Below, in pieces: positions 7,157 to 13,668 of a DNA stretch of 32,809 nt. The position numbers and the translations under genes were made by a program. The notes below the pieces were generated by a model. That model ran no database searches. It was not told where the DNA came from and saw only the letters and a list, made by a program, of their open reading frames with translations. Location of the stretch: positions 1-32,809 of the forward strand of contig PLUL01000014.1 in assembly GCA_003164895.1 (NCBI GenBank). Reading direction: 5' to 3'. This stretch comes from Bacteroidota bacterium (GTDB taxonomy: Bacteria; Bacteroidota; Bacteroidia; Palsa-948). Each line of letters opens with the position of its first letter. Position 1 is the first letter of the stretch.

Positions 7157-8260
7157 CTATTTTGGAAAATATTTTTCTTTCATTCTGAATATTGGCTTCT
7201 CAATGAAAACAAAAGATAGATGGGAAACCGCAATGGTAAGTGTGAGCGATGAAATAATAAGAATAAAAAGTGTTGCGAAATTATCTACATGGAATCCAAG
7301 CATTAAAAAAATCAGATAAATAATATTTACGATAGTAATGTGAAAAAGGTACATACCATAACTCATCTTTCCGAAATAGGATAAAATATTTTTAGAAGAT
7401 ATTTTCAGTTTTGAACCTTGAGGAATAAATATTGCAAGTAATAACGTAAAAAAAACTCCTTGGATTGTCGGGTAGAGAAAATAAAGCATAGTATTTTTAA
7501 TTATAAAATTTTGCGCAATAAATGTCAAGGGAATAATTCCGATAATAAATGCCCATTTATAAAAAGATGGAACGGCAAGAATGATTGAAGATATGCGTTG
7601 ATTTTTTATCGAAACTAAATAACCAAGTAATGCTCCCATTGAAAACAAATCCAAGCATGAAATAAGTTCAGTAGATATGAAATCAGTATGATGAAAAAAA
7701 TAAGCTGCGATTTTTATCAAGAATGAAATTGAAAATATTCCGGCAAGAAAAATCGGGATGCGTTTTACAGGAACAAATTTTATCAGCAATGGAATTAATA
7801 AATAGAAATGTTCTTCAACGCATAAAGACCAGTTCATTGATAATGGGGTAATGCTGGTTAATTTATTCATCGAAATAGCTTTGAAATTTTCAAGAAATGT
7901 AAAGGAGTAAATCCATTCGTGTTTGTAGCCAAATTGATTATATAATCCCATTTTATTTATTATGCCAACTGGTAGGATGAAAAAAATAATTAGAAGTAAA
8001 TAATAGATTGGCCATATTCTTAACATACGCCTTAAAAAGAAACTTTTTAAATTAATTGAATTGTTTTGTAACTTTTCTTGAACTAAGAGAAATGAAATAA
8101 GAAATCCACTAAGGATGAAAAAAAAGTTTACACCATTTGCACCCCAATGATTGATATTAGAATACCATGAAATGCCAAATGCCGGAACATGCTGAAGGAA
8201 AACCAAAAGAAAAGAAAAGAAGCGTAGCGCATCCAGCGTATGAAAATATTTTTTGGTCAT
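7157..8260 (-). CDS. OafA/YrhL-type membrane acyltransferase (acyltransferase family 3)
   Basis: A 367-residue multi-pass membrane protein with about ten hydrophobic segments. Acyltransferase-3 signatures are present: R13 followed ten residues later by H24 (ALRFFSFLLVFLQH), GVNFFFILSGFL, the basic-aromatic RRMLRIWPIYYLL, and SMNWSLCVEEHFYLL. The family O-acylates surface sugars such as O-antigen or exopolysaccharide, using acyl donors from the cytoplasm. The start was chosen because its ATG overlaps the aroE stop as ATGA; another ATG lies six codons upstream inside aroE. It is AT-richer than aroE and uvrB on either side and has no metabolic link to either, suggesting a cargo gene inserted in a housekeeping run. 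It may act on the polysaccharide built by the 14.8-22.3 kb genes, but that is only an inference. Confidence 0.88.
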   Translation of the reverse strand: MTKKYFHTLDALRFFSFLLVFLQHVPAFGISWYSNINHWGANGVNFFFILSGFLISFLLVQEKLQNNSINLKSFFLRRMLRIWPIYYLLLIIFFILPVGIINKMGLYNQFGYKHEWIYSFTFLENFKAISMNKLTSITPLSMNWSLCVEEHFYLLIPLLIKFVPVKRIPIFLAGIFSISFLIKIAAYFFHHTDFISTELISCLDLFSMGALLGYLVSIKNQRISSIILAVPSFYKWAFIIGIIPLTFIAQNFIIKNTMLYFLYPTIQGVFFTLLLAIFIPQGSKLKISSKNILSYFGKMSYGMYLFHITIVNIIYLIFLMLGFHVDNFATLFILIISSLTLTIAVSHLSFVFIEKPIFRMKEKYFPK

Positions 8261-9000
8261 GAGTTCCAGATTTCCCATGCTTTATCCGCTTGAAGATGCA
8301 GCATCTCTAATCCGTTTTTAATTTGTGCGCCTTTTGCTTTTCCTTTTTTTTGGAACAAACTTTCTTCCGGATTATAATTCAAATCGTAGAGCAAATGTTT
8401 GGATGAAAGAAACTGGTAGGGAATATTCGGGCAGTCAGTAATATTTGGAAACATTCCGAGTGGAGTTGTATTTATGATTAGAGAGTGAGAAGTCATTATT
8501 TCCTCGTTCAAATCCTGATACCTGATACTTGATACTTGATTTTCGTTTCTCGATACAAACAAGAATTCTATTCCGAGTTTATTTAAAACATAAGCAACTG
8601 CTTTTGCTGCTCCTCCAGTTCCTAAAATTAGTGCTTTGGAATATTTTTCCTGAAGTAATGGTTTAAGAGAAGATTCAAATCCAAAAACATCGGTATTATA
8701 GCCAGTCATGATTCTTGATTCATGATTCTTGATTCTAATGCAATTCACTGCACCTACTTCTTTTGCTGATTTATCCACTTCGTCGAGAAACTTAATTATG
8801 TTTTGCTTGTGCGGAATGGTTACACTTAATCCGAAAAGTGTAGTATTGTTTTTTATAAGAGCAGGAAAATCATTTATGTTTTCAAGCGGAAAGTTTTTGA
8901 ACTCGCAATCGGTAATTTTCTCGCGAGTAAATTTTTCTGTGAAATATTTTTGAGAAAAAGAGTGGGAGAGAGGGAAGCCAATCAATCCGTATGTCTTCAT
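8257..9000 (-). CDS. aroE: Shikimate dehydrogenase AroE
   Basis: A 247-residue NADPH-dependent 3-dehydroshikimate reductase of the aromatic amino acid pathway. The substrate-binding SHS is at 12-14, catalytic Lys65 is in TIPHK, catalytic Asp104 is in GYNTD (100-104), the nucleotide-binding GTGGAAKA is at 127-134, and the C-terminal NGLEMLHLQADKAWEIW is present. Length is slightly short for the family (about 270) but all catalytic parts are intact. Two heptanucleotide microsatellites lie in the frame, one encoding the residues just before GYNTD (about 89-98) and one encoding about 154-163. Both ends are ATGA overlaps, with dedA upstream and the acyltransferase downstream, so it is translated in a coupled operon. 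Confidence 0.95.
   Translation of the reverse strand: MKTYGLIGFPLSHSFSQKYFTEKFTREKITDCEFKNFPLENINDFPALIKNNTTLFGLSVTIPHKQNIIKFLDEVDKSAKEVGAVNCIRIKNHESRIMTGYNTDVFGFESSLKPLLQEKYSKALILGTGGAAKAVAYVLNKLGIEFLFVSRNENQVSSIRYQDLNEEIMTSHSLIINTTPLGMFPNITDCPNIPYQFLSSKHLLYDLNYNPEESLFQKKGKAKGAQIKNGLEMLHLQADKAWEIWNS
8514..8541. repeat. 7-bp microsatellite inside aroE (CCTGATA/CTTGATA type)
   Basis: Four contiguous heptamers on the plus strand: CCTGATA, CCTGATA, CTTGATA and CTTGATT. They encode part of QVSSIRYQDL in AroE, a surface-like stretch of the cofactor domain. Confidence 0.7.
8707..8734. repeat. 7-bp microsatellite inside aroE (CATGATT/CTTGATT type)
   Basis: Four contiguous heptamers on the plus strand: CATGATT, CTTGATT, CATGATT and CTTGATT, an exact doubling of a 14-mer. 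On the coding strand they give IKNHESRIM directly before the catalytic GYNTD motif of AroE. Confidence 0.75.
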
Positions 9001-12223: not shown

Positions 12224-12231
12224 TATCTTTG
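12224..12231 (+). promoter_or_regulatory. Putative -7 box (TATCTTTG) of glmM
   Basis: A perfect TAnnTTTG on the plus strand. A transcript from it would begin at about 12238, after the ATG at 12232, which argues for the GTG at 12253 as the start. It is divergent from the TPR box about 80 bp away. Confidence 0.5.
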
Positions 12232-12252
12232 ATGTACTTAAAACTAAAATTT

Positions 12253-13668
12253 GTGCTAATAAAATCTATTTCAGGAATTCGGGGAACGATTGGCGGAAAA
12301 TCAGGCGAAAATCTTACTCCATCAGATATTGTAAAATTCACTTCTGCCTATGGCGCATGGATGCTCAGTCAGAAAACAAAATCAAAAAATCAAAAATCAA
12401 AAGTTGTTATTGGAAGAGATGCGCGAATTTCCGGAGAGATGGTGAGCAAACTTGTTTCGTCAACACTTCTAGGTCTTGGCATTGATGTGATTGACTTGGG
12501 ACTTTCCACCACACCAACCGTGGAAGTTGCGGTTATGGATGAAAAAGCTGACGGAGGAATAATAATAACTGCCAGCCACAATCCCAAACAGTGGAATGCG
12601 CTTAAACTTTTAAATAGCGATGGCGAATTCATCTCCGAAAAAGATGGATTGAAAGTTTTGGAAATTGCTGAAGATGAAAAAATCCTTTTTCAGGAAATAC
12701 AATCTCTTGGACAAAGAAAAGAAATGAATGATTACATTAAAAAACATATTGATAAAATACTTGCGCTTGACTTAGTTGACAAAAAAATAATTAAAGAAAA
12801 AAAGTTTCGCATTGCAGTTGACGCTGTGAATTCCACAGGAGGAATTGCTGTGCCTATGCTTTTGGAAGCACTTGGTGTTGAAGAAATCTTTAAAGTGAAT
12901 TGCGAACCAACTGGAGATTTTGCTCATAACCCGGAACCGTTACCCGAAAATCTCCATGATCTTTCAAAAGTTGTTGAGAAAAAAAATGCACACCTTGGAA
13001 TTGCAGTTGACCCGGATGTTGACCGACTTGCCATAGTTTGTGAAGATGGAGAAATGTTTGGTGAAGAATATACCTTGGTAGCTGTTGCGGATTATATTTT
13101 GAAGAACAATAAAAAAGGAAATACGGTTTCAAATTTGTCTTCTACTCGTGCTTTAAGAGATGTTACCGAAAAAGCCGGAGGAAATCATTTTTCATCTGCT
13201 GTTGGAGAAGTAAATGTGGTGGAGATGATGAAAAAACATAAAGCGGTGATTGGCGGTGAAGGAAATGGCGGAGTTATTTATCCTGAACTTCATTATGGAA
13301 GGGATGCGTTAGTGGGAATTGCTTTGTTCCTCACGCATCTTGCGAAATTTGGAAAGAGTTGTTCCATGCTTCGCGCCACTTATCCGGATTATCATATTTC
13401 AAAAAATAAAATTGAATTGATACACGGAATTGATGTAGATAAATTATTGGTTGGAGTGAAAGAAAAATATAAAAAGCAGCCTGTGAATACCGTGGATGGC
13501 GTGAAAATTGAATTCGGAAAAGAATGGGTTCATTTGAGGAGATCAAACACTGAACCGATCATTCGGATTTATTCGGAAAGTGAATCTCAGTCAACTGCGG
13601 ATAATCTTGCGCAAAAAATCATTGCTGACATTAAAGAATTAATTAAAGCAAACCGAAACGGAAACTGA
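12253..13668 (+). CDS. glmM: Phosphoglucosamine/phosphohexose mutase (GlmM-like)
   Basis: A 471-residue alpha-D-phosphohexomutase, probably converting glucosamine-6-phosphate to glucosamine-1-phosphate for UDP-GlcNAc and so for peptidoglycan and LPS. The N-terminal signature SISGIRGT is present, with the phosphoserine loop TASHNP (Ser108), metal-binding DPDVD (253-257), the sugar-specificity loop GEGNGG (around Glu336) and the phosphate-binding loop RRSNTEPIIRIYSE near the C terminus. GEGNGG differs from the GEQSGH of classical GlmM, so glucose or mannose phosphate may also be substrates. I chose GTG at 12253 because it gives the usual N terminus (M-LIKSISGIRGT) and follows the predicted transcript start. 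ATG at 12232, seven codons upstream, is the alternative. It overlaps the next gene by one base. Confidence 0.9.
   Translation: MLIKSISGIRGTIGGKSGENLTPSDIVKFTSAYGAWMLSQKTKSKNQKSKVVIGRDARISGEMVSKLVSSTLLGLGIDVIDLGLSTTPTVEVAVMDEKADGGIIITASHNPKQWNALKLLNSDGEFISEKDGLKVLEIAEDEKILFQEIQSLGQRKEMNDYIKKHIDKILALDLVDKKIIKEKKFRIAVDAVNSTGGIAVPMLLEALGVEEIFKVNCEPTGDFAHNPEPLPENLHDLSKVVEKKNAHLGIAVDPDVDRLAIVCEDGEMFGEEYTLVAVADYILKNNKKGNTVSNLSSTRALRDVTEKAGGNHFSSAVGEVNVVEMMKKHKAVIGGEGNGGVIYPELHYGRDALVGIALFLTHLAKFGKSCSMLRATYPDYHISKNKIELIHGIDVDKLLVGVKEKYKKQPVNTVDGVKIEFGKEWVHLRRSNTEPIIRIYSESESQSTADNLAQKIIADIKELIKANRNGN

Follow-up and report, generated by a model that had tools for sequence, protein, structure and literature searches.

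Tandem repeats of seven-base units were surveyed in bacteria in 2007, reportedly by Mrazek et al. That survey, as cited in PMC4692102, found heptameric simple sequence repeats to be over-represented in bacteria, and the length of DNA contacted by polymerase has been proposed as the cause of the excess; this 2015 paper describes the repeats as over-represented in many bacteria, with a detailed literature absent, and reports intergenic excesses in Xanthomonas and Nostoc. The GGGAATC and GGGGA(C/T)T heptamers of these two genera are there presented as G-rich single-word families, studied as quadruplexes (PMC4692102). TAACTGA heptamer repeats are known from Beggiatoaceae, Cyanobacteria and some Bacteroidetes (MacGregor, 2015; PMC4679880): they are mostly just upstream of start codons, and a regulatory role is proposed; in a single genome 24 sets lie in or overlap 25 ORFs, for the most part at the ends of the proteins, and heptamer differences between two Cyanothece strains are mostly 7-nt steps.

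The arrays considered here were found in aroE of a Bacteroidota genome (G000), in a 32,809-nt stretch of DNA that was analyzed as a whole (“the window”). With bacterial heptameric repeats in general they share an excess of seven-base units over other periods, seen in the sample of the source genome. Intergenic location is usual in the known cases, without being a defining feature, and is what has been described for Xanthomonas and Nostoc, but here most arrays of the source genome are in genes; recurrence in particular enzyme segments, presence in signal peptides and word turnover between relatives are further features of this case. With TAACTGA they have in common tandem heptamers, occurrence in Bacteroidetes and some copies inside ORFs; TAACTGA, however, is one favored word mostly upstream of starts, and here there are many words, inside genes, including AGAATCA and AGTATCA within aroE. 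The likeness to GGGAATC and GGGGA(C/T)T lies in heptamer arrays that vary in length and sequence between close relatives, G-rich single-word families being a feature of those repeats.

Two other systems invite comparison. In Haemophilus influenzae, phase variation of HMW1A is said to be mediated by heptanucleotide repeats; the tandem units are likewise of seven bases, but HMW1A is a known switch, and aroE gives no sign of switching in a between-species comparison. Rickettsia palindromic elements are short repeats that sit within genes and preserve the frame. In two relatives of the source genome, one of the arrayed AroE segments is indeed occupied by a dispersed palindromic element; the window arrays themselves, in contrast to conserved inverted-repeat inserts, are tandem and word-variable. 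Among the matches listed in a search of titles and abstract starts, a search outside which most subscription papers fall, there were none on heptamer-encoded signal peptides and none on recurrent heptamer arrays in enzyme loops. As heptamer repeats, the arrays are known in kind; what is unusual is their place inside genes and signal peptides, their recurrence in the same segments, their in-frame state and their changing words.

Two heptamer arrays in aroE

The features of the window needed here are:

8257-9000, minus strand: aroE, shikimate dehydrogenase; an uninterrupted ORF of 247 aa, intact
8709-8736, minus strand: array 1, coding-strand unit AGAATCA (Tandem Repeats Finder: period 7, 4.0 copies, 90% matches)
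8514-8540, minus strand: array 2, coding-strand unit AGTATCA (Tandem Repeats Finder: period 7, 3.9 copies, 95% matches)
12385-12402, plus strand: a weak heptamer array (score 11) inside ORF 12229-13668

The aroE product matches Pfam PF08501 (E=1.2e-17), and all 17 of its NCBIfam matches are to shikimate or quinate/shikimate dehydrogenase models; TIGR00507 (aroE) scores it at 173 bits, under the 200-bit cut-off. ORF 12229-13668 is a phosphoglucosamine mutase (TIGR03990, 527 bits; cut-off 439). Elsewhere in the window, a 42-bp tandem repeat (1985-2158; 4.1 copies, 84% matches) lies inside a small ORF at 1843-2235.

The original prediction, that two heptamer arrays lie inside aroE and that one of them falls just before the GYNTD motif, is borne out, its coordinates being one or two bases off those of Tandem Repeats Finder. 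In the protein, residues about 89-98 (RIKNHESRIM), immediately before GYNTD, come from array 1, and residues about 154-163 (NQVSSIRYQD) from array 2. Both consist of about four imperfect, non-identical units, on the coding strand AGAATCA, AGAATCA, TGAATCA and AGAATCA in array 1 and ATCAAGT, ATCAAGT, ATCAGGT and ATCAGG in array 2. An array scoring at least 14 appeared in 0 of 20,000 codon-shuffled versions of aroE and in 0 of 40 window sequences generated with an order-3 Markov model.

In an AlphaFold2 model of AroE (input: the window protein and 39 unchanged relatives; mean pLDDT 94.9; secondary structure by DSSP), array 1 covers the end of a strand (87-91), a turn and the start of the next strand (97-101), and array 2 covers part of a stretch that is neither helix nor strand (151-157), a short strand (158-160) and the residues after it; block 151-160 has the lowest model confidence (82). 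Both arrays are thus at turns or loops in the predicted structure, and the arrayed segments are probably exposed at the surface.

Computed loss or gain of one unit shifts the frame of aroE, as had been foreseen, with the first stop at codon 95, 95, 161 or 190 and a truncated protein. Such changes are what a phase-variable contingency locus would use, with unit gain or loss switching AroE, or secreted proteins with arrayed signal peptides, on and off in the manner ascribed to HMW1A. This is improbable in either case; in aroE the arrays have about four imperfect units, the gene has a single match in the source genome, and no internal stop is present in the aroE matches listed from 60 genomes, all 60 of those searched having a match. 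The suggestion that aroE might switch therefore finds no support in these matches; the in-frame state, which the other half of the same suggestion held to be selected, is what is seen.

The same segments in related genomes

Twelve AroE orthologs (7 from the genus, 5 from other families) were compared, among which six arrays were called. Segment 1, before GYNTD, has arrays in G000 (AGAATCA), G004 (GATGGCG) and G011, of another family (GACGAGA); segment 2 has them in G000 (AGTATCA) and G005 (AGAACCA running into AGTATCA), at the same length in both genomes with different units. The G006 array, near the N-terminus, possibly lies upstream of the start codon. Segment 1 of G001 and G005 holds a palindromic element in place of heptamers. 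Relatives of this element are found in all seven genus genomes, with 7 to 48 matches each (48 in G005 and 13 in G001; the counts include partial matches and both strands), so the site before GYNTD has been reached by unrelated small repeats. Beyond these genomes, no aroE array of score at least 10 was present in the 79 aroE loci taken from other named records, a set that leaves out L060 as a duplicate of G005.

Several further observations concern aroE and its neighborhood. Long non-heptamer stretches precede GYNTD in segment 1 of L037 and L041. Long heptamer arrays, filed as intergenic, stand beside aroE in Niastella and Longitalea (L064 2811-3124, L068 2794-2967, L072 2816-2935). G005 has a second, divergent aroE match, 56% identical (G005:C126:4930-5667).

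A survey of 44 orthologs of aroE, waaA (Kdo transferase), rsmE and argS (TIGR00456, 432 bits; cut-off 262) gave 34 period-7 arrays of score at least 11 (6, 14, 1 and 13, respectively), and one array in total at periods 5, 6 and 8-11. The ORFs were taken stop to stop, so that their frames are open by construction. For rsmE, with an array in 1 of 8 orthologs, no match was present in G004, G006 and G023, and G011 was set aside for its split match with an internal stop. All 14 arrays called in WaaA are within three segments, as are all 13 in ArgS, and waaA and argS are both arrayed at least once in all seven genus members. The WaaA and ArgS segments are presumably loops. When arrays were placed at random, which ignores common descent, overlapping between-genome pairs averaged 2.9 for waaA against 28 observed and 1.9 for argS against 22, neither being reached in 2000 trials; for aroE the mean was 0.84 against 4 observed, reached in 21 of 2000 trials, and recurrence for aroE alone is modest. 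The words differ in 49 of 54 co-located pairs (26 of 28 in waaA, 19 of 22 in argS, 4 of 4 in aroE). The arrays of a segment may nevertheless all go back to a single ancestor whose words have since turned over.

Are the words themselves mobile? Dispersed heptamer words could land in coding DNA as mobile short repeats and stay where tolerated, much as the original prediction had it in supposing that intergenic repeats had entered aroE. Runs of the TGATTC/TGATAC kind do exist elsewhere, the word family being present in three more arrays of G000, one of them in argS, but all three are located inside long open frames or where such frames begin. TGATWCN is thus found in 5 arrays of G000, GATGGCN in 4 places of G004 and AGAACCN in 3 of G005; over 60 genomes these words gave 31, 19 and 17 hits, compared with 3, 0 and 7 for the reversed control, and the palindromic element in segment 1 of G001 and G005 is itself dispersed. 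On the other hand, segments often keep their length, and with an extrapolated total of roughly 140 arrays to a genome some words would be expected to coincide. In its simple form the proposal is also unsupported: relatives have other words in the same segments, as in aroE, and ATTAGAATCAA, part of the aroE word, occupies the same position in array-free G002. Some word sharing within genomes remains. As the main source of the arrays dispersal seems unlikely, though it merits some weight, and it may act beside local generation.

Segment lengths, which are omitted where the anchor motif failed, are the other evidence from this comparison. Segment B of WaaA measures 54 nt in 11 orthologs, 6 that have a called array and 5 that lack one, and 75 nt in the twelfth; its identity at offset 7 is 0.59-0.88 in the seven genus members, 0.56 in G011 and 0.25-0.32 in the other four, while identity between genus genomes is 0.60 in its columns and 0.68 over the whole gene. 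WaaA segment C is 60 nt in three orthologs with and three without arrays, and 54, 63, 63 and 81 nt in four more without; segment A is 54, 54, 57 and 63 nt with arrays and 36-54 nt without, being shorter (36-48 nt) in four array-free orthologs. AroE segment 2 is 66 nt in two orthologs with and two without arrays, and 57 nt in four array-free genus members. AroE segment 1 is 36 nt in G000, 27 nt (9 nt off) in four array-free orthologs, and 39, 39 and 42 nt (3-6 nt off) in three further ones, with 42 nt in both G004, which has an array, and G003, which does not. Length is thus often, though not always, unchanged between segments with and without arrays. Gain of whole units alone would not yield length differences of this kind; the equal lengths could come from copying of the neighbor 7 bases away followed by a return to register, or from paired gains and losses under selection.

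Period 7 across genomes and in signal peptides

A sample of 725,601 bases (about 22%) of the source genome, partly drawn from large contigs on purpose, was scanned for arrays of score at least 14, low-complexity units being excluded. It had 31 arrays at period 7, or 29 without the window, which is part of the sample and had been chosen for its two arrays, compared with 6 in total at the other periods from 4 to 12 (1 at period 4, 0 at 5, 1 at 6, 4 at 8 and 0 each at 9-12). In the first 293 kb there were 15 exact period-7 runs of at least 10, as against 1.3 under an order-3 Markov model; an excess was also seen for runs at 14 and 21 bases. Preference for period 7 is weaker outside the source genome: 17 arrays compared with 12 at all other periods in a genus sample (433,400 bases of G003-G006; periods 4-12), 18 compared with 16 in other families (909,130 bases), and 16 compared with 13, of which 10 have period 8, in the 79 named loci around aroE (354,829 bases).

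The arrays also differ in location. The 31 of the source genome, 86% of whose sample is coding, divide into 13 in predicted signal peptides, 11 elsewhere in genes and 7 intergenic; the 17 of the genus sample into 5, 4 and 8; and the 18 of other families into 0, 4 and 14. In the named loci, 15 of 16 are intergenic and 1 is in a gene. Arrays are therefore in genes in 24 of 31 and 9 of 17 cases in the source genome and genus, as against 4 of 18 in other families; the pooled comparison, 33 of 48 against 5 of 34, gives a Fisher p of 1.3e-6, to be read with the caution that arrays within a genome are not fully independent. Among these Bacteroidota, heptamers are thus not confined to this genus; what distinguishes it is that they have spread into genes.

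By a home-made rule, not SignalP, predicted signal peptides make up 2.5% of coding bases in the source-genome sample and hold 13 of its 24 coding arrays (p 2e-15); in the genus sample they make up 2.0% and hold 5 of 9 (p 4e-7). In 3 of the 13 (L149 6083, L149 19004, L218 16800) and 1 of the 5 (L161 16980) the array is in the basic start, not the hydrophobic core. Read by eye, two arrays filed as other coding (L149 18950, L263 9383) are also in signal peptides. The same rule found no period-7 array in signal peptides of other families, and two at period 8. Examples of heptamer-encoded signal peptides that can be read directly are LASCFLLLASCYSFAQS, LLLASGFLLLASGIFAQ, FAFLLFTFHFSLFTSVYAQ and LLLAIGYWLLATCSFAQ. 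Arrays with other relatives' aroE words were also seen in L207, L209 and L213; on one strand these arrays read as signal-peptide cores such as FLAICHLPSAICHAQS and FLLVLGSWFLLFASAFAQS. One gene can be followed between genomes:

L149 18071-19027: PorP/SprF protein (Pfam PF11751)

It has 66%-identical orthologs in three genus members, and in all four the signal peptide contains a heptamer array, with different words; in 9 of 16 PorP-like loci read, there is an array of score at least 9 near the N-terminus.

Since 5' gene ends are the classical place for phase-variation switches, the many coding arrays at the 5' ends of secreted-protein genes could be taken as such. A switched-off copy might then be filed as an intergenic array, with a signal peptide out of frame with the gene downstream. 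None of this kind was found when 15 intergenic arrays (7 from the source genome, 8 from the genus) were read by eye in six frames; two (L231 9381 and L244 15395) read as signal peptides in frame.

Selection on the protein is another possible maker of arrays, if repeated heptapeptides are favored in loops and signal peptides and the DNA period simply follows. It would account for the enrichment in signal peptides and perhaps for WaaA segment B, whose two ends both retain a basic-hydrophobic-basic pattern. When codons within the predicted signal peptides are shuffled, however, practically no period-7 arrays result (mean 0.00, compared with 12 observed in the source genome and 4 in the genus); arrays are also intergenic (7 of 31 and 8 of 17); and no protein rationale accounts for a DNA period indivisible by 3. 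We regard selection as the maker of the arrays as very improbable. An assembly artefact of short-read metagenome bins is hardly credible: the seven genus genomes are indeed drafts of 80-410 contigs, but the arrays are only a few tens of bases long and in open frames, recur in the same segments of separate genomes and, in the source genome, are specific to one period.

Loss of mismatch repair was considered as a cause and rejected, a mutS1 match above cut-off being present in 12 of 12 genomes. In G002:C226, G004:C68 and G005:C167 the mutS match is in two in-frame pieces, split near model region 350-378, and the open frames are 1064, 929 and 1044 aa, respectively, compared with 888 in G000; this suggests in-frame inserts, as judged from the reading frames.

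A proposed local source of heptamers and its consequences

The reading we prefer, with a probability of roughly 0.6, is that seven-base repeats of many words are made locally across the genome, with misalignment by 7 nt as the likely source, and that in-frame results are kept. During DNA synthesis, the growing strand would transiently misalign by 7 nt; sometimes this would add or remove one unit, and sometimes the strand would copy its neighbor and then come back into register, leaving the units alike and the length unchanged. In genes, selection would let only in-frame results survive, so that arrays would last where nearly any filler is acceptable to the protein, in signal peptides and in the variable segments, two of them in AroE, that separate conserved blocks. 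The arithmetic of the period may help: 7 and 3 have no common factor, so three units equal seven codons and a perfect array encodes the same repeating heptapeptide in every frame, from which it follows that an array free of stops in one frame is free of them in all.

A bolder version, which we put forward tentatively and with some doubt, is that a length-neutral, word-blind 7-base stutter is a standing, genus-wide source of protein variation in tolerant enzyme segments and signal-peptide cores, homogenizing units within a genome while words diverge between relatives and gene length and frame stay unchanged.

Whichever version applies, this is a clade where a heptamer process is visible inside conserved genes, with length, frame and protein structure as a yardstick, and comparing orthologs of the same length, some arrayed and some not, can tell templated copying apart from gain and loss of units. 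The findings also point to microsatellites as raw material for signal peptides, and they warn against taking repeats in the coding loops of such genomes as proof of phase variation. If the length-neutral stutter is real, it would keep rewriting signal-peptide cores and, in essential enzymes, the same tolerant segments.
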